Of a stretch of DNA of 64,000 bases, positions 51,719 through 60,527 are shown in pieces (within the stretch, counting starts at the first letter, position 1; each line of letters starts with the position of its first letter). The stretch lies in contig NZ_JABVED010000011.1 of the NCBI RefSeq assembly GCF_014323725.1, positions 124,001 through 188,000 of the forward strand, given 5' to 3'. This stretch comes from Actinokineospora xionganensis. Lineage in GTDB: Bacteria; Actinomycetota; Actinomycetes; Mycobacteriales; Pseudonocardiaceae. The translations under genes and the position numbers were made by a program. A model generated the notes under the pieces. It was not told the origin of the DNA. It searched no databases and saw only the letters and a program-made list of their open reading frames with translations.

Positions 51719-54700
51719 CTACTTCAACTTGTACGCCCGGATGATCGTCTGCTCGACCGTCGCACCTCGACCGTCCTCCGCCTTGGCGCGCAGTGACACG
51801 GACTTCGCGTCAGCGGGGTGCAGGAGCAGCGCGGTGTTGTTGGCGACAGTCGCCCGTCGCCATGTCTTCCCCTCGTCGTAGGACACCTCGACGCCGAGTT
51901 TGCGTGGCGTGACAGTCGATCCGTCTTCGAGCCGCATGCCCACCGGCAGCAGGAAAGGCCTGCCCGCGCGGGCGCTGTTGCTCTCGTCCAACACGCCGTG
52001 GAACCGCAGCACCGACAGCGGGATGATCTTGTCCCCGGCCGCGGAGGTGAACGTCCACGCCGCGGACACCTTGGTGCTCACGTCGAACAGCTCGCCCCGC
52101 ACGCCTTCCGTGGCAAGCCGATACGCACCTTGCTCGGCCGGTACCGGGAACATTCCATAGCCCGCCCCCGGGCCCTCGCCGATCTGGACACCGTCGCGGT
52201 GGAGGGTCGTCTTGCCGGAGGTGACCACGGTGGATCCGGCGTTGCCCGCGCCGTCGCCGAACAGGCCGATGCCGAACGTGATGTCGTCGCCGACCCGCTC
52301 CGCCCAGGGGTACGGCGATCGTGGCAGCGCCGGGCTGAAGATCGCCCCAGCCATCCGCTCCTGGTACGTCCGGCCTGCGCGCAACGACTTCGGCACCGAA
52401 CGGAACGAGCCTTGGATCGCGGGCGGCTCGCCGAGCATCACCTCCGATTCCCACTCTGTGTTCTCGGTGGAGAAGTGCTCGGTGAGGCCACCCGGCAGCG
52501 AGACCTCGCGCCCGATCGCCCAACTGCTTCCCCGCCCGTCCGGATGGCGGGGGAACGTCAGCCGAATGCCGTTGGTCGCCTTGGCGGTCGGCTGTCCGAG
52601 CGCGGTGCGCACGGTCGCCACGTCGGCTGGCCGGTAGGTCTTCTCCAACCCGGTCGGGACGGACTTCGGCTGGAAATGGACCAAGCCGTAGAAGTCCTTG
52701 CCCGCCATCCACGACGTGCTCAGCGTCCAGAGGAACTTGTCCGCGGGCAGTTCCGGCCCCACGTGCGCGGTGTGGATCTGCTCGGCCGAGTCCCCGAGCG
52801 CCGACACACTGATCCACCCCGTCTCCGTGGCGAACTCATAACCCGCGGAGGCCAGGACCGACACCGCCGCCGGATCCGGCGCGACGACCTTGAGCTGCTT
52901 GGTGACCCGGGCGTCGACCACGGTTTCCGTGTCCTTGGTGAGCGTGAACGCCGGCTCGGTGACCACGTGCGAACCCGTCTCCATGGCGAAGAACGTGTCG
53001 ACCAGGTATCGGCCCTTCGGCATCCGCCGCGTGACCACCCCGCCCGGACTGTGGATAAAGGACAGCTGACCCGTGTCGAGCGCGAAGACCAGCGTGTACG
53101 CGTTCGGCGACGGTTTACCGTCCAGACCGAGGAAGGTCGTCTTGACGTCGTAGCTCTCGACCTCGCGGTCAACCCCGACCGGGGTGCGCGTCGCCGACTC
53201 GCCGGACGTCGCCACGACCGTGCCGGAGTAGGTGCCGTCGACCGAGCCCAGGCGCGTGTCCGAGGTGACGCCGACCGTCGCGGTGCCGCCCGCGGGAACC
53301 TCGACCCGGTCACGCGACAAGGCGATCATCCCGGCCGGTGCGGGCTTTCCGTCGGGACCGACGAAGTCCACCTTCAGGTCCAGGGTCACCGGTGCGGTGC
53401 CGCCGTTGCGGTAGGTGATCTCCTTCGTCACCGGCTCGTCGTCGCCATGCGGCCACCTCGGCACCCCGAAGCCGACCGACGTCGGTTCACTGGTCACGTT
53501 CTGCGCCAACGCCCTCGGCACGTCGATCCGGCCGGAGCCCTGCGCGTACGCGGGCTCCTGGGGCGTCGGCCTGGCCGACGCGGTCAGCGCCGCCTTGAGC
53601 TGCGCGGCCGTCCACTGTGGATTCTTCTGGGCCAGCAGCGCGGCCGCGCCCGCGACGTGCGGGGTGGCCATCGAGGTACCCGACATCGACACGTAGCCGG
53701 GCTCCACGGGACTGCCGATGACGCCCTCCTTCGCCTGCGCGGCAACGATGTCCGAGCCCGGGGCGGTGACGTCGGGCTTGATGGCCCCATCGCCCACGCG
53801 CGGACCGCGGCTGGAGAAGAACGAGAGTGCGTCGTCGCGCTCGACCGAGCCGACCGTCAGCGCCGCGTCCGCGCTGCCTGGCGAGCCCACCGTGCCCGCC
53901 GACGGACCGGAGTTGCCCGCGGCGATGACGAACAGGGTGCCGTGGTCGGCCGTGAGCCGGTTGACCGCCGCTTCCAGCGGGTCGACCTCGGCTGTGTCCT
54001 CCCCGCCGAGGCTCAGGTTCACGATGTCGGCACCCTGCTCGGCGGCCCACTCCATGCCCGCGATGATCCACGACTCCTGGCCCCAGCCCTGGTCGGAGAG
54101 CACCTTCCCATCGAGCAGCTTGGCGCCGTGCGCCACACCTTGGTACTTCGCTCCGCCGCCCGCGATGGTCGATCCGACATGCGTGCCGTGCCCCATGCGG
54201 TCCACCGCGTCGGCGGAGTCGGTGAAGTTGCGTTCCCCGATCTCACGGCCCGCGAGGTCGGGGTGGGTCTGGTCGACCCCGGTGTCCAGGACCGCCACGG
54301 TGACACCGTCGCCGGTCAGCCCCGCCTGCCAGGCCGCGGGCGCGCCGATCTGCGCTGTGCTGCGGTCGAGGTTGGCCTTGTGCCGGGCGTCGAGCCACAC
54401 CTTGCCCGGCCCCGCCGCCAGCGCCCGCCAGGACTCGCCCAGCGACGACTTCTCGGCGGCGACCGCGCGGGCCCCCGCCGAAGGCAGTTCACGCACGGTC
54501 CGCACTCCCGCCGAGCGCGGTGTCGGGCCGGTGAGGATCAGCGGCAGGTCGCCGCGGCCGTCGCCGTAGCCCGCGTCGAGCAGGCCGGTCACGTCGAACA
54601 GTCGCGGGTCGAGCTTGCCCGAGGAGATCAGGGGCAGCGCGTCGGCCGGGATGACATTGAGCCGCCCGCCCGCGGTGTACGTGCGGAACGTAATTCGTTC

Positions 54701-54877
54701 GCGGCCTTTTCCGGGCAGCACAGCGGGTCTGCCCGCTGAGAGCAGCACCCGGTCGCCGGTGATCAGGGTGACCGCCCTGGCGTCGTTCGTCGGCGGCTTC
54801 GGTGGCTCCGCCGTGGCCGCGGTCGAGCCCGCGGCCACCAATCCGATCGCGATAGCGAGAGAAATTGTCCGTTTCAT
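51719..54877 (-). CDS. secreted subtilisin-like serine protease (S8 family)
   Basis: 1052 aa. Signal peptide about 1-25 (ISLAIAIGLVAAGSTAATAE). An inhibitor-like pro-region (about 30-170) precedes the catalytic domain (about 185-460). The triad is intact: D198 in VAVLDTGVDQTHPDL, H230 in GHGTHVGSTIAG, S402 in SGTSMATPHVAGAAALL; the oxyanion Asn is in IAAGNSGPSAG. A large C-terminal region (about 480-1052) is beta-rich, probably several Ig/Fn3-like domains. Extracellular degradative protease of the type common in Streptomyces and Pseudonocardiaceae. Confidence 0.95.
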   Translation of the reverse strand: MKRTISLAIAIGLVAAGSTAATAEPPKPPTNDARAVTLITGDRVLLSAGRPAVLPGKGRERITFRTYTAGGRLNVIPADALPLISSGKLDPRLFDVTGLLDAGYGDGRGDLPLILTGPTPRSAGVRTVRELPSAGARAVAAEKSSLGESWRALAAGPGKVWLDARHKANLDRSTAQIGAPAAWQAGLTGDGVTVAVLDTGVDQTHPDLAGREIGERNFTDSADAVDRMGHGTHVGSTIAGGGAKYQGVAHGAKLLDGKVLSDQGWGQESWIIAGMEWAAEQGADIVNLSLGGEDTAEVDPLEAAVNRLTADHGTLFVIAAGNSGPSAGTVGSPGSADAALTVGSVERDDALSFFSSRGPRVGDGAIKPDVTAPGSDIVAAQAKEGVIGSPVEPGYVSMSGTSMATPHVAGAAALLAQKNPQWTAAQLKAALTASARPTPQEPAYAQGSGRIDVPRALAQNVTSEPTSVGFGVPRWPHGDDEPVTKEITYRNGGTAPVTLDLKVDFVGPDGKPAPAGMIALSRDRVEVPAGGTATVGVTSDTRLGSVDGTYSGTVVATSGESATRTPVGVDREVESYDVKTTFLGLDGKPSPNAYTLVFALDTGQLSFIHSPGGVVTRRMPKGRYLVDTFFAMETGSHVVTEPAFTLTKDTETVVDARVTKQLKVVAPDPAAVSVLASAGYEFATETGWISVSALGDSAEQIHTAHVGPELPADKFLWTLSTSWMAGKDFYGLVHFQPKSVPTGLEKTYRPADVATVRTALGQPTAKATNGIRLTFPRHPDGRGSSWAIGREVSLPGGLTEHFSTENTEWESEVMLGEPPAIQGSFRSVPKSLRAGRTYQERMAGAIFSPALPRSPYPWAERVGDDITFGIGLFGDGAGNAGSTVVTSGKTTLHRDGVQIGEGPGAGYGMFPVPAEQGAYRLATEGVRGELFDVSTKVSAAWTFTSAAGDKIIPLSVLRFHGVLDESNSARAGRPFLLPVGMRLEDGSTVTPRKLGVEVSYDEGKTWRRATVANNTALLLHPADAKSVSLRAKAEDGRGATVEQTIIRAYKLK

Positions 54878-55019
54878 CTGTTACCAGCCCCCACCGGTCA
54901 GGAAAATGACAACGCACAAGGGGCCGACGACAGGTGACGTGCAATTCCCCCAGAAATCAAGCCCCAGTAATTTCAAGTTAATGAGTTTCGGTGGCTCGCG
55001 CATCGCCCGATTGGGTGGG

Positions 55020-55052
55020 CCGGGTGGTGTCGACAGGGTCGACACCACCCGG
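55020..55052 (-). terminator. terminator of the TIGR04222-DUF692 operon
   Basis: Perfect 15-bp inverted repeat (55020-55034 with 55038-55052), AGG loop. It lies 46 bp past the stop of the last operon gene and upstream of the subtilase gene, both on the minus strand. Confidence 0.8.
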
Positions 55053-55098
55053 TGAACCCGGCCACCGGCTCGCGAGAGCCGTTGCCCCGGCCGGGAAC

Positions 55099-55434
55099 TC
55101 AGGTACGACGCCACCAGCGGCGTTGGGGTTCCGCCACATGACCACCGGCGATGAGCCACTCGCGGAACGCCGCCGCGTCCTCCCGGGCACGCGAGCCCAC
55201 CGTGCGCGGATGGGCGCGCGCGTACTCGTCGAAGAGGGGACGGTAGCGCTCCTCCAACTTGTCCGCGACCTCGGGCGCTAGTTGCGCGACAACCCGCCTG
55301 CGTTTGGCGAGCAAGGCATCGGCCTCCACCTGGAGGGCGATCTCGTCGAACCCCGCGGGGGGCTGGCCGCCTGCCAGCAGGGCCCGCAGCAACGCGGCCT
55401 GCTCCGCGGCCAGTCGTTCCCGCGCGCCGCTCAC
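55099..55434 (-). CDS. small helical partner protein of the DUF692 enzyme (111 aa)
   Basis: GTG start at 55434 overlaps the DUF692 stop by 4 nt (GTGA). The protein is almost entirely helical: [75 protein letters not shown], then a basic Trp-rich end (RRWWRRT). In known MNIO systems (MbnB/MbnC, TglH/TglI) the DUF692 enzyme works with a separate partner that recruits the substrate. This position and coupling fit such a role, but the sequence is not a recognised MbnC homologue. Confidence 0.65.
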
Positions 55435-56258
55435 GCCGTCGCCGCGAGAACGCCGCGGATGGCGTCGAGTTCGGCCAGCAGCGCGGCATCCGTCGGGTAC
55501 AGGTCGTCGCGTTCCAACAGGACACCAGGCGGGCGGACCCGGGAACACAGCTCCCGCAACACATCCAGCACACCGGGCGGCACCGGGTGGGCGTGCGTGT
55601 CGTGGTAGACGCCGTCGCGCTCGACCCCGCCCGCCACGTGCACGTAGGCGATCCGGTCGAGTGGCAGCCCGTCGAGGAGGTCGGCCGGGTCCTGTCCCAG
55701 ATTCCGGCCGTTGGCCCACATGTTGGCCACGTCGACCAGCAGCATGCACCCGGTCCGCTCGACCAGCTCGCTGAGGAACTGCGCCTCGGTCAGCTCCTCG
55801 TCGGGCCACCGCAGCAGGGCCGCGATGTTCTCCAGCGCGAGCGGCACCCCCAGCGCCGCTTGTGCGGTCTTCACGTTCGCGGTCAACACATCGAGGGCGT
55901 CGCGGGTGCGCGGCACCGGCATCAGGTGCCCCGAGTCGAGCCCGCCCGCCCGGACGAAACAGACATGGTCGCTGGCCATCGGCGCGCCGAGCGCGTCGGT
56001 CACCGCGGCGAGGTGGTCGAGCCGGGCTCCGTCGACCGGATCGGCCCCGCCGAGCGAGAGGGAAACGGCGTGGGGGAGCACGGGGACGCCCCGGTCCAAC
56101 AGGACCCGCAGTGACTCCGGGAGGCTGTCGTGGTGGATGTTCTCCGCCACGACCTCCACGAAGTCGATTCCCGGCATCCGCTCCACGGTCAGGTCGATCT
56201 CCGACCGCCAGCCGATGCCCACCCCGAGCTCACCCACGCCAGTCACCCTCGATCTCAT
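55431..56258 (-). CDS. DUF692 family multinuclear non-haem iron oxidase (MNIO)-like enzyme
   Basis: 275 aa from ATG 56258, which overlaps the upstream stop (ATGA). TIM-barrel family including MbnB and TglH, iron enzymes that oxidise cysteines or other residues in peptides. Candidate metal ligands are all present: E39-N40 (VVAENIHHD), H63 ([11 protein letters not shown]), D97-H98 (ASDHVCF), E143-N144 (ALENIAAL), D176/N179 ([10 protein letters not shown]), H207 (YVHVAGG), H219-D220-H222 ([10 protein letters not shown]), E249 (LLERDD). It is the central gene of a three-gene operon with a Cys-tailed membrane protein. Confidence 0.92.
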
Positions 56259-57169
56259 CCGCCACAGCCACCGCCGCCGCCGCAGCCACCCCCGCCGCTG
56301 CTGCCGCACGACGATCCTCCCCCGGATGAGGACCCGGAACCACACCCCGACGAACCGGAGTTGTTCGCGGCGATCGCCTGCTTCTGTGATTCCAGAGCCG
56401 AGGCGAGTTCGGTGTCGGGGTGGGCGGCGAGGCCGCTGAGCGCGACCACGCCGACCACCCCCGCCGCACCCCCGTACAGCACCGCCGCGTCGTTCACCTG
56501 CCTCGCCGACCGGGTTCCCCGGGCCTCGGTGAGCAGCCGTTCCGCCGCGTACGTCCGGTCTGGCACCGACTTGCGGTACAGCAGGACCGTCACCACCGCG
56601 GTGACGACCAGGGCGAGCGTGAGCCAGCCGATCGGCCGCCCCTCCGCCAGCCCGTTCGTCCACCGCGCGCCGCCCACCACGAACAGCACGGTCAGCGGCA
56701 GGACCCCCCAACGTGCCCGAGCCGCGTCCTCGCCGACGAGCAACCCCTTGCGGGCCAGGGATTCGCCGAGCTTGCGCACGACGTCACCCCGACCGACCTT
56801 GTCGACGAGCAGACCGATACTGCGTTCCCGGTTCCGCTGGATGTCCGCCAGCACCGCCTGGTCGATCGGGTCCGTCGCGGTGGACCCCTCGACCACCCGC
56901 ACGGTTCCCTTACGGCTCGGCCGCACCTTCTCGCGGTCGATCAACCTGGCGACAGCGGTCTCGACGACACGCCGGGGCCCGCCTGCCAGGTACGCCAGCT
57001 CGTCGAGCGAGAGCTGACCCGGCCCGATCGCCCCGCTCGCCGCCCGCGAATCGGCGGACCCCGCGCGGACCATGATCCGCACCGCCAAAGCGAACAGCAG
57101 AGCGAAAGCGAAAGCGACCACGTAGATTCTCAGAAAATCCGGTCCCGCGATTCCCCACGGTTCATTCAT
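56255..57169 (-). CDS. TIGR04222-like membrane protein with Cys/Gly-rich C-terminal tail
   Basis: 304 aa from ATG 57169. A membrane helix near the N-terminus (about 12-34, [21 protein letters not shown]) precedes a soluble domain with [21 protein letters not shown] and [17 protein letters not shown], as in TIGR04222 proteins. Further hydrophobic segments lie at about 155-172, 180-202 and 236-252. The last 36 residues are almost only Gly, Ser and Cys, with cysteines at 276, 288, 296 and 302, ending CGGGGGCGG. It is coupled to the DUF692 gene by an ATGA overlap. The tail is the likely substrate of that enzyme. Confidence 0.8.
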
Positions 57170-57278
57170 CTCGGTCCCCCCCTCACGCCAAGTTGCCCTG
57201 ACGTGACCCATGCTGTTCGCGGTGTGACCGCGAGCACAAGGGACCTTGATTTAGATTTAGGGAACCCGTGGGCCAGAT

Positions 57279-57722
57279 TTAGGCTTCTTGAGCCGGATTT
57301 GAGGTATCGGGCACCAGGCGCAGGGAAATCGAATTGATGCAGTACCGCTGGTCGGTCGGCGTCGGGTATCCCTCGCCCTCGAAGACGTGCCCAAGGTGGC
57401 TGTGGCAGGTCGCGCACAGGACCTCGGTGCGCACGGTGCCGAACTGGCGGTCCTCCCGCAGCATGATGGTGTCGCCCGCGAGCGGGGAGAAGAACGACGG
57501 CCAGCCGCAGTGCGACTCGAACTTGGTGTCGCTGCGGAACAGCTCCGCCCCGCACGCGCGGCACTGGTAGACCCCGACGGTCTTGGTGTCGGTGTACTCA
57601 CCGGTGAACGGGCGCTCGGTCCCGGCCTGGCGCAGCACCGCGAACTCCTCCGGGTTGAGCTGCGCCCGCCATTCCTGCTCGGACTTCACGACCTTGGGGG
57701 TGGCGCCGACAACGGGTTTCAC
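57279..57722 (-). CDS. msrB: peptide-methionine (R)-S-oxide reductase
   Basis: 147 aa from GTG 57722, preceded by GGAGGAG. MsrB fold: PFTGEYTDTKTVGVYQCRACG, ELFRSDTKFESHCGWPSFF, ATCHSHLGHVF and the catalytic DQRYCINSISL. Two CxxC pairs (CRAC and CATC) bind structural zinc. It reduces methionine-R-sulfoxide in proteins, repairing oxidative damage. It corresponds to Rv2674, which lies in the same haem-gene neighbourhood in M. tuberculosis. Confidence 0.96.
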   Translation of the reverse strand: MKPVVGATPKVVKSEQEWRAQLNPEEFAVLRQAGTERPFTGEYTDTKTVGVYQCRACGAELFRSDTKFESHCGWPSFFSPLAGDTIMLREDRQFGTVRTEVLCATCHSHLGHVFEGEGYPTPTDQRYCINSISLRLVPDTSNPAQEA

Positions 57723-57750
57723 GAGATCTCTCCTCCAAGCGCGCACGGGT

Positions 57751-58077
57751 TCAGCCCAGCAGCATGCTGAAGACGAACGCCAGTGTGTCCCACGCGGCGA
57801 CGATGACGCCGAGCAGGATCAATGTCACCACGATGCCCGCGGTGACCCGGTAGTGGCCACCCAGGCGGTTGGCCGCGTCGGCGAAGTCGCCGACGCCGCC
57901 GAGGTAGCCCTCGACGGTGTAGCCGGGCCGGACCCGCTCGACCCGGTCGAGGTGCTCGGCGAACGCCTTGGCCTCGGGGTCGTCAGGGTCCAGACCGATC
58001 AGGTCGTCGGCGAACCGGCCCGGTGGGCCCGGGCGCGGCTCATCGTCGGCTGTCCCCGAGGAACCTGTCGCGACCAT
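57751..58077 (-). CDS. small protein with C-terminal membrane anchor (108 aa)
   Basis: ATG start at 58077. Residues 1-75 are acidic and soluble (DDEPRPGPPGRFADDLIGLD, DPDDPEAKAFAEHLDRVERV, RPGYTVEGYLGGVGDFADAA). Residues 80-106 form one hydrophobic helix (VTAGIVVTLILLGVIVAAWD). It is a tail-anchored topology, lying between hisS and msrB on the same strand with short gaps (24 and 28 bp), so probably one operon. No family recognised. Confidence 0.7.
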   Translation of the reverse strand: MVATGSSGTADDEPRPGPPGRFADDLIGLDPDDPEAKAFAEHLDRVERVRPGYTVEGYLGGVGDFADAANRLGGHYRVTAGIVVTLILLGVIVAAWDTLAFVFSMLLG

Positions 58078-58101
58078 GCTTCAACGGTAACCCGAACGTG
58101 G

Positions 58102-59373
58102 TTACCTGTCGCCCAGCTTGCGTTCCTCGATTTCACCCGCGGTGTCGCTCTTGAGGTGGACGAACGAGGTGAAACCCCACTCCTCCAGCCTGCCCAGCTG
58201 CGCGCCGAACTTCCCGCGCCTGCGGATCGGGGAGACCGACCGGCCGTCCGCGCGCAGCTCGCGTGCGGCGCCGGTGACCCGCGCGAGCGGGACGTCGGCC
58301 TCGTAGAGCACCGCGACGGACTCGCCGCGCGCCTGGCCTTCGAGCAGGTCGACGATGCGCTCGAAGCCGATGGAGAACCCGCAGGCGGGGACGTCGCGGC
58401 CCAGGGAGCGGCCGATCAGCCGGTCGTATCGCCCGCCGCCCGCGACCGAGCCGGACGAGCCGGGGTGCACGATCTCGAAGATCTGACCGGTGTAGTAGCC
58501 CATGCCGCGGACCAGCGTCGGGTCGAATTCCCAGGTCAGCGGCCTGGTCTCGGCCAGCGAGCGCAGCGCGTCGGCGGTGGCGGACAGGTCGGCGACAACC
58601 TCGTCGGACAGGCCGGGGACCGACGCGGTGAGCTGGTCGGCGAGTTTGGCCGGGTCGATGCCCTGCAGGCCGGTGATGCTCGCCTGTAGTTGGTCGATCC
58701 GCTCGGCTTCGAGGCCGCGGCCCGCCAGTTCGGCGCGCACACCGTCCCAGCCGACCTTGTCGAGTTTGTCGAGGGTGATGAACAGGCCGGTCCACTCCGC
58801 CTCCGGCAGCCCGATGCCCTCGGCCAGCGCGGACAAGAACCGACGGTCCGATACGCGGACCGTGGTCCCGTCGAGGCCGACCGCGGCCAGCGCCTCGGTG
58901 GTCGCCTCGATCAGTTCGACCTCGGCGAGCACGGACTCCTCGCCCAGCATGTCGATGTCGCACTGGTAGAACTGCCGGTAGCGGCCCTTCTGCGGGCGCT
59001 CGGCGCGCCACACGGGCCCGACCTGGAACGAGCGGAACGGCTGCGGCAGGCTCGCCTGGTTGTTGCCGTAGAAGCGGGTCAGCGGGACCGTCAGGTCGTA
59101 GCGCAGGCCGAGGTCCACAAGCTCGTTGAGGGTGGTGTCGGCGGCGACCGTCTCATCGAGGCCCCGGCGCAGGACCCGGTAGATCAGCTTCTCGTTCTCG
59201 CCGCCCTGGCCGCCGGTGAGGCGCTCGATGTTCTCCAGGGCGGGCGTCTCGATGCGCTGGTAGCCGAAGCGGTGGTAGACCTCGGTGATCTGGGCCAGGA
59301 CATGGTCGCGCACGGCGACGGTCGCGGGCAGCAGGTCACGGGTGCCCCTGGCGGGGCTGTTGTCCATCTTCAC
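58102..59373 (-). CDS. hisS: histidyl-tRNA synthetase
   Basis: 423 aa from GTG 59373 (GAGGAA 9 nt before; ATG 59367 is two codons later). Class II aaRS: opening ARGTRDLLPATVAVRDHVL, motif 2 PVWRAERPQKGRYRQFYQCD, HisRS signature 1 LVRGMGYYTGQIFEIV, AGGGRYDRLIG, motif 3 ACGFSIGFERI, and a C-terminal anticodon-binding domain (about 325-423). It charges tRNA-His. In M. tuberculosis hisS is elsewhere, so this genome may carry a second copy or may have moved the gene. Confidence 0.93.
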   Translation of the reverse strand: MKMDNSPARGTRDLLPATVAVRDHVLAQITEVYHRFGYQRIETPALENIERLTGGQGGENEKLIYRVLRRGLDETVAADTTLNELVDLGLRYDLTVPLTRFYGNNQASLPQPFRSFQVGPVWRAERPQKGRYRQFYQCDIDMLGEESVLAEVELIEATTEALAAVGLDGTTVRVSDRRFLSALAEGIGLPEAEWTGLFITLDKLDKVGWDGVRAELAGRGLEAERIDQLQASITGLQGIDPAKLADQLTASVPGLSDEVVADLSATADALRSLAETRPLTWEFDPTLVRGMGYYTGQIFEIVHPGSSGSVAGGGRYDRLIGRSLGRDVPACGFSIGFERIVDLLEGQARGESVAVLYEADVPLARVTGAARELRADGRSVSPIRRRGKFGAQLGRLEEWGFTSFVHLKSDTAGEIEERKLGDR

Positions 59374-59477: not shown

Positions 59478-60527
59478 GTGGCAACAGAGGCTGTGGAGAT
59501 CACCGTCGGCGACCGCGCCGTGCGAGTGTCCAATCCGGACAAGCCGTACTTTCCCGAACTGGGGCTGACCAAGCGCCAGATCGTCGAGTACTTCCTGTCC
59601 GTGGGCGACGGCATCCTCGGCGCTCTGCGTGAGCGGCCGACGACGCTGGAACGCTGGCCTGGCGGCGTCTTCGAGGGCGCGAAGCTGTCCACCAGGGCGG
59701 ACAACCGGGGTGACGCGTTCTATCAGAAGCGCATCCCGAAGGGCGCGCCCGATTACGTCGAGACCGCGCGCATCGCCTTCCCCAGCGGCCGTTCCGCCGA
59801 CGAGGTCTGCCCGACGGAGCTGGCGGTGGTGGCGTGGGCGGTGAACCTGGGCACGCTGACGTTCCACCCGTGGCCGGTCAGCCGGACCGACGTCGACCAC
59901 CCCGACCAGCTGCGGATCGACCTCGACCCGCAGCCGGGCACCGACTTCACCGACGCGGTCAAGGTCGCGTTCACCGTGCGTGAGCTGCTCGCCGAGCACG
60001 GCATCGAGGCGTTCCCCAAGACTTCGGGCGGTCGGGGCGTGCACCTTTACGTGCCCATCGAGCCGCGCTGGACCTTCGTGGAGGTCCGCCGCGCGCTGAT
60101 CGCCTTCGGGCGCTCGGTGGAGCGGCGGATGCCCGACGAGGTGACGATCAACTGGTGGAAGGAGGAGCGCGGCTCGCGCATCTTCATCGACTACAACCAG
60201 ATGGCGCGTGACCGCACCATCGCCTCCGCGTACTCGATCCGCCCGACCCAGCGCGCGCTGGTGTCCGCACCGGTCACCTGGGACGAACTGGGCGACGTGC
60301 ACCCGGAGGACTTCTCGGTGCTCACGATGCCCGCCCGGTTCGCACAGGTGGGCGACCTGCACGCGCCGGTGGCCGAGAAGGCGTTCTCGCTGGAGCCGCT
60401 GATCGAGCTGGCCGACCGTGACGAGCGCGACCACGGGCTGGGTGACCTGCCCTATCCGCCCGACTATCCCAAGATGCCGGGGGAGCCCAAACGGGTCCAA
60501 CCCTCGAAAGCCCGTGACGACACCTGA
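59478..60527 (+). CDS. stand-alone LigD-type polymerase/primase domain protein
   Basis: 349 aa, GTG start. It has the AEP primase-polymerase domain of NHEJ ligase D: VRVSNPDKPYFPELGLTK, AFYQKRIPKGAPDYV, the catalytic acidic pair RIDLDPQPGTDF, phosphate-binding TSGGRGVHLYVPI, and IFIDYNQMARDRTIASAYSI. No ligase or nuclease domain is attached, as with mycobacterial PolD1/PolD2. It probably fills gaps with ribonucleotides in end joining or repair. It overlaps the following HEAT-repeat gene by 14 nt. Confidence 0.93.
   Translation: MATEAVEITVGDRAVRVSNPDKPYFPELGLTKRQIVEYFLSVGDGILGALRERPTTLERWPGGVFEGAKLSTRADNRGDAFYQKRIPKGAPDYVETARIAFPSGRSADEVCPTELAVVAWAVNLGTLTFHPWPVSRTDVDHPDQLRIDLDPQPGTDFTDAVKVAFTVRELLAEHGIEAFPKTSGGRGVHLYVPIEPRWTFVEVRRALIAFGRSVERRMPDEVTINWWKEERGSRIFIDYNQMARDRTIASAYSIRPTQRALVSAPVTWDELGDVHPEDFSVLTMPARFAQVGDLHAPVAEKAFSLEPLIELADRDERDHGLGDLPYPPDYPKMPGEPKRVQPSKARDDT

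Follow-up and report, generated by a model that had tools for sequence, protein, structure and literature searches.

Several described systems pair an MNIO enzyme (formerly DUF692) with a partner protein. TglH-TglI and MbnB-MbnC are such enzyme-partner pairs, belonging to the same superfamily as the enzyme studied here, and TglI is described as having an RRE fold (PMC10214503). The ChrH cluster also contains an integral membrane protein, ChrI, which ChrH is reported to need (PMC10214503), though a later review found it dispensable according to PMC12452194. Bufferins and captophorins (BufB, FonB, HvfB) likewise rest on an MNIO and a partner, involve several Cys of the precursor and have a role connected with copper. 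Bufferin-type precursors are described as carrying Sec signals, with a DUF2063-RRE protein (PME-type 1) as partner (PMC12452194, PMC13097082). Some characterized MNIOs convert Cys to 5-thiooxazoles in copper-associated peptides, and in the EGKCG repeats of captophorins each Lys-Cys loses four hydrogens to yield a 5-thiooxazole (PMC13097082). In the passages of this literature that we draw on, the characterized MNIO products are peptides.

A membrane protein has also been put forward as a candidate MNIO substrate. Antoine et al. 2025 (PMC12452194) report that genes for TIGR04222 proteins ending in Ser/Gly/Cys tails neighbor MNIO genes, chiefly in Actinomycetota; they also name PME-type 2 partners and propose modification for a subset of these tails. 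For at least 10% of TIGR04222 clusters, a set not restricted to the taxonomic family of our genome, they predict a PME-type 2 protein, and they describe many TIGR04222 clusters with an MNIO as seemingly partnerless. The tails are predicted there to be periplasmic and the large domains extracytoplasmic. A putative Pseudonocardia RiPP cluster is said to contain one TIGR04222 peptide (PMC5183585). A full-text search limited to open-licence papers found no further paper on TIGR04222 proteins, nor any report of a modified one. The proposal that these tails are modified is not new, being in print in PMC12452194; what our analysis adds is that all family clusters examined have a partner, that the genome holds a second candidate substrate in trans, and that the predicted sidedness of the tails is mixed.

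The locus considered here lies in a 64,000-nucleotide stretch of the genome of Actinokineospora xionganensis, which we call the window. The locus shares with the clusters of Antoine et al. (PMC12452194) the same three protein families and the Ser/Gly/Cys tail, and it leads to the same proposal. Our preferred reading, to which we assign a rough probability of 0.55, is a membrane-anchored, metal-binding tail that is modified by the MNIO.

The operon and its enzyme-partner pair

Three minus-strand genes make up the operon. The first encodes a TIGR04222 membrane protein of 304 aa (57169-56255; NCBIfam TIGR04222, 136 bits against a cut-off of 43), the second an MNIO of 275 aa (56258-55431; PF05114, 272 bits against a cut-off of 25), and the third, from a GTG start, a protein of 111 aa (55434-55099). 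Adjacent genes overlap by 4 nt, ATGA between the TIGR04222 and MNIO genes and GTGA between the MNIO and third genes, an arrangement that the earlier note on this DNA had read from the letters and that the coordinates confirm. The same note had the operon closed by a perfect terminator. The hairpin 3' of the operon (55013-55059, minus strand) does have a perfect 15-bp stem, together with 4 further pairs and a 3-nt loop (-36.5 kcal/mol), but a T-run is absent 3' of it and a terminator scan over 54000-58500 returned 0 sites. The hairpin is strong, but it does not qualify as a canonical intrinsic terminator.

In the window, an MsrB gene (57279-57746, minus strand) precedes the operon and an S8 peptidase gene (51719-54877, minus strand) comes after it. 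These neighbors recur among 80 named loci of the window's taxonomic family (MsrB in 71/80, S8 peptidase in 50/80), where HisS also neighbors the operon, whereas MsrB, S8 peptidase and HisS were each found in 0/22 of the stretches fetched around TIGR04222-MNIO loci outside the family. Given these counts, we regard MsrB and the S8 peptidase as local gene order and rejected them as components of the system. A plus-strand ORF at 59478-60527 of the window is one that we take to resemble a LigD-type polymerase domain.

The second gene (55431..56258) encodes a putative iron-dependent oxidative enzyme of the MbnB/TglH/ChrH family, as judged from its match to the PF05114 (MbnB_TglH_ChrH) profile and from its conserved ligand positions. 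Nine candidate metal ligands (H53, H88, E133, D166, N169, H197, D210, H212 and E239, numbered as in alignment A2; full-protein numbers are higher by 10) are invariant across 25 alignment rows, and the solved relatives 8HCI and 3BWW carry identical residues at these positions, which bears out the earlier description of a DUF692 enzyme with its candidate iron ligands in place. Some of the nine presumably bind iron. Solved members of the superfamily of TglH and MbnB match the window MNIO in sequence. The best NCBIfam model for the enzyme is BufB, at 194 bits below the 310-bit cut-off, and Pfam and NCBIfam detect neither a DUF2282 or Buf_6/12_Cys precursor nor a DUF2063-RRE partner in the operon. 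The operon falls outside the bufferin definition in this way, and we do not place it among the bufferins; its candidate substrate is a membrane protein, and it pairs the MNIO with a short PME-type 2 protein.

The product of the third gene has no Pfam or NCBIfam match over cut-off. Proteins related to it group into one family (alignments A1 and A6). In Saccharothrix sp. NRRL B-16314, a 115-aa ORF directly 3' of an MNIO gene shares 56% identity with it over 108 aa. PME-type 2 model A of PMC12452194 comes from the same strain and has the same length, and it is on strain and length, not on accession, that we equate this ORF with WP_033442786. Judged from its homology to a described member and from the position of its gene directly after the MNIO gene with a 4-nt overlap, the 111-aa protein is a PME-type 2 MNIO partner, and the enzyme partner that had been suspected in the third gene now has a known family. 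At 111 aa it appears too short to combine a DUF2063 domain with an RRE, an argument from length that PMC12452194 likewise makes for short PME-type 2 proteins. DUF2063 (PF09836) matched 7/38 third-gene relatives weakly (best E 5e-4) and did not match the window protein itself, hhalign of the third-gene family against DUF2063 gave 3.2% (P 0.014) with a collinear alignment, and a PDB profile search with the partner returned no DUF2063 structure and no relevant match.

A partner profile built from A1 matches 61/61 TIGR04222-MNIO clusters of the family among the matches listed, in every case on the MNIO strand and just after the MNIO gene, as well as 80/80 named loci and 20/22 loci outside the family (absent at L288 and L290); the source sequences of the profile overlap the family clusters and the named loci, and the 22 outside loci are independent of it. 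By comparison, the partner was found at 1/9 family MNIO loci without a listed TIGR04222 protein, and downstream proteins scanned at four of these nine comprised two DUF2063 proteins and two without a Pfam match. The figure of 61/61, set against the at least 10% predicted in PMC12452194, revises the impression given there of many partnerless TIGR04222-MNIO clusters, though the denominators differ. Since a partner accompanies the enzyme in every family cluster examined, the system can be tested by co-expression of the three genes.

Tail cysteines and their link to the MNIO

The window TIGR04222 protein passes its profile cut-off, has several hydrophobic segments and ends in a Ser/Gly/Cys region; it begins MNEPWG, and its relatives start with MNEPWG or MDEPWG. 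The Gly/Ser tail that is the proposed target of modification (residues 269-304, 56258..56365, minus strand) consists of 19 Gly, 11 Ser, 4 Cys and 2 Asn, with the Cys at 276, 288, 296 and 302, positions for which the earlier note proved exact on a recheck of the sequence. At an assumed background of 0.8%, at least four Cys in 36 residues would have a probability of about 2e-4, and Cys tails reappear in relatives of this protein. Gly comes directly after the tail Cys in 388/536 cases, and the residue in front of the Cys is usually Ser or Gly rather than Lys. The Cys-Gly pair resembles captophorin EGKCG, whereas the residue before it is Lys there and Ser or Gly here, and the likeness to captophorins would be one of chemistry, not of membership. 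In Saccharothrix (L172, L174, L175, L180 and L203), a TIGR04222 copy without tail Cys stands between Cys-tailed copies, and these Cys-less copies end ...AGGWFAGGWLAA(Q/E)WLEGDDGG....

Two checks had been suggested for this locus: co-occurrence of TIGR04222 with DUF692 genes, and conservation of the tail cysteines beside them. Of 120 genomes from the window's family, 69 have TIGR04222 and 61 an MNIO, and 61/70 MNIO loci lie within 4 kb of a TIGR04222 match among those listed; the pairing recurs outside the family, and the expected co-occurrence is borne out. Across the phylum, TIGR04222 exceeds its cut-off in 8/197 genomes, 7 of them with an MNIO. Of the nearest MNIO loci that were named, 78/80 have the TIGR04222 gene upstream of the MNIO; at the remaining two a contig ends roughly 350 and 560 bases from the MNIO. 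An apparent TIGR04222-MNIO fusion at L231 (an 815-aa frame) was rejected, because the two genes do not share a frame and the long frame is mechanical.

A tail was scored as Cys-bearing when its final 60 residues held at least two Cys, and the scoring covered the 150 family TIGR04222 matches listed and 54 chosen copies of other families; a further 30 loci (L221-L250) were inspected and left out of these counts. Among the family matches listed, tails of this kind occur in 57/61 copies nearest to an MNIO, in 45/60 other copies inside the clusters (the remainder being 11 with no tail Cys and 4 with one), in 17/24 unlinked copies of MNIO-bearing genomes and in 3/5 copies of genomes without an MNIO. 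At least one such copy is present in 60/61 clusters, and with 57/61 of the nearest copies this answers the second check in favor of conservation. The sole exception, in genome G048 (L058, G048:C1:396224-396998), has an MNIO gene broken into three pieces that fall in different frames, and the TIGR04222 protein next to it has one tail Cys; this one case may reflect decay or a sequencing error or artifact. For the 54 chosen copies of other families, at least two tail Cys were found in 21/22 linked copies with the MNIO downstream, 1/4 with the MNIO upstream, 0/13 unlinked copies and 2/15 copies from genomes without an MNIO, 13 of these 15 being partial domains. When pooled, the proportions are 124/147 for linked copies versus 17/37 for unlinked copies in MNIO-bearing genomes (Fisher p 4e-6), and 141/184 for MNIO-bearing genomes versus 5/20 for genomes without an MNIO (p 7e-6), statistics that ignore the kinship of the copies. 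With full-length domains only, genomes without an MNIO give 3/7, too few copies to test.

These distributions bear on whether the tail is modified at all. It might be a low-complexity stretch that binds metal or forms disulfides unmodified, the MNIO link being inherited gene order, and the Cys tails of the 17/37 unlinked copies, like those of four genomes in which no MNIO was detected (G094, G101, G439 and G475), would fit such an account. We consider it distinctly improbable, as the TIGR04222-MNIO pairing is also seen in other families (22 loci, retrieved for that link), where MsrB, S8 peptidase and HisS were not found in the stretches fetched.

The window genome itself departs from a simple pairing of enzyme and tail. 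It has one MNIO and one further TIGR04222 copy (G000:C4), which is unlinked, carries 6 tail Cys and has no MNIO beside it. Family clusters hold from 1 to 4 TIGR04222 copies, and 34/61 hold 2 to 4 beside one MNIO, among the matches listed. One MNIO may in such genomes modify several TIGR04222 tails in trans, unlinked ones included, an idea compatible with our preferred reading that we hold tentatively, at somewhat short of even odds; the unlinked paralogues fetched from another family of the order (L251-L260) tell against it, as 10/10 have a short K/R/P-rich tail with 0 tail Cys.

Five loci of family f5, in the same class (L212, L214, L216, L217 and L218), present a different exception, in that MNIO and partner are present and no recognizable Cys-tailed protein was found near the MNIO. 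A scan listed one Cys- and Gly/Ser-biased frame at each of the five, which we regard as chance frames because their GC content by codon position does not follow the pattern seen in control genes. Upstream of the MNIO at L217 is an ORF that we presume to be peptidyl-tRNA hydrolase-like. The layout of this locus resembles 'adjamnio-II' as described in PMC12452194. At L212, L214 and L216 a linked TIGR04222 protein is present without tail Cys, from which it follows that TIGR04222 could be a platform, besides or instead of being a substrate.

Taken in its stronger form, this alternative makes the TIGR04222 protein a membrane partner or platform of the MNIO, like ChrI for ChrH, with the substrate elsewhere and the Cys tail binding metal unmodified. 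The linkage of MNIO, partner and TIGR04222 is kept at those three loci where the tail is without Cys, copies with no or one tail Cys stand beside Cys-tailed ones in the family arrays (11 and 4 of 60), and the requirement of ChrH for ChrI (PMC10214503) provides a precedent, albeit one qualified by the later report in PMC12452194. All 60 family clusters with a one-piece MNIO match nevertheless hold a copy with at least two tail Cys among the matches listed, and the MNIO is already paired with a PME-type 2 partner; we judge the platform alternative unlikely. The earlier claim that the tail is the target of the MNIO is strengthened by the retention of tail Cys and by the partner family, but its status as substrate is less secure given the unlinked Cys tail and the f5 loci.

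Tail sidedness and the proposed modification

The hydrophobic segments of the window protein span residues 12-30, 156-174 (weak, KD 1.24), 180-198 and 229-247. In this four-segment reading, with 22 K/R in residues 33-155, the positive-inside rule predicts the N terminus outside, the large domain inside and the tail outside. The tail is called outside at a hydropathy threshold of 1.2, and there is no call at 1.4 and 1.6 because the second segment drops out. The four-segment reading would make the large domain cytoplasmic, and the tails of some relatives would likewise lie inside, in contrast to the extracytoplasmic domains and periplasmic tails predicted in PMC12452194.

Across the family, the 120 Cys-tailed copies give a mixed picture. 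Crude topology places the tail inside in 47/112 confidently scored copies at threshold 1.2, in 54/112 at 1.4 and in 63/104 at 1.6, and a noisier sort by segments finds both classes within one cluster in 18/60 clusters. In 26/120 copies no window between the third segment and the tail reaches a mean hydropathy of 1.0; most of these have several K/R there, and two have none following the best window. The number of K/R following the segment was not significantly different between the two sorted classes (p 0.39). A sort by distance to an xP[DN] motif was dropped because it misplaced segments, and a second sort still included the third segment; for sidedness we rely on the crude topology and on the conservative figure of 26/120. 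The surface display that had been expected of the tail is predicted for the window protein at threshold 1.2 but does not extend to the family; as a general rule for Cys tails it is unlikely, because crude topology puts many of them inside.

According to our preferred reading of a modified, membrane-anchored tail, the MNIO and the PME-type 2 protein would oxidize the Gly/Ser/Cys tail in the cytoplasm, around the time of membrane insertion. Oxidation would occur before the tail crosses the membrane in the window protein, or while the tail remains inside in some relatives, and the product would be a modified tail that binds metal, probably copper, and stays attached to the membrane. We infer that the tail is the substrate and that it binds metal, and likewise the side on which it lies and the chemistry (formation of 5-thiooxazole or some other oxidation of Cys). 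A tail lying outside would need to be modified before it crosses the membrane, which weighs against this reading. In contrast to the small peptides modified by TglH-TglI and MbnB-MbnC, the candidate substrate here is a membrane protein. The ChrH-ChrI cluster is similar in having an integral membrane protein, yet ChrI is described as a DUF1772 partner (PMC10214503) and not as a Cys-tailed substrate candidate. If the tail is modified, the operon would provide an MNIO-modified integral membrane protein, with modification timed with membrane insertion.

The large soluble domain of the TIGR04222 protein (residues 33-158; 56696..57073, minus strand) is best termed GPP34-like, and we claim no more than this. 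GPP34 matches were obtained for 8/52 soluble-domain members (best E 4.4e-5), and hhalign of the domain against ten GPP34 proteins, taken from three other genomes, gave a probability of 86.7% (P 4.3e-6), compared to 0.1% for a control with five DUF2063 proteins. The GPP34 score of the TIGR04222 domain is 21.7 bits, below the curated cut-off of 29.1. A search for GPP34 in the window's own genome gave no match, and the positive control of the same search was equally without a match.

One may speculate that this domain recognizes the substrate. In the most far-reaching arrangement that we have considered, one MNIO-partner pair would modify linked and unlinked membrane proteins, with tails on opposite faces of the membrane and Cys-less siblings among them, to form a heteromeric, anchored copper-handling complex in which the GPP34-like domain of each substrate would be a built-in recognition domain, substituting for leader peptide and RRE. 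Such a complex, which we think quite improbable, would be a protein-scale counterpart of the bufferins with no released peptide. A PDB search with the soluble domain returned two weak matches, the best to a MarR-type regulator (E 0.035), and residues 33-155 hold 22 K/R and 16 D/E.
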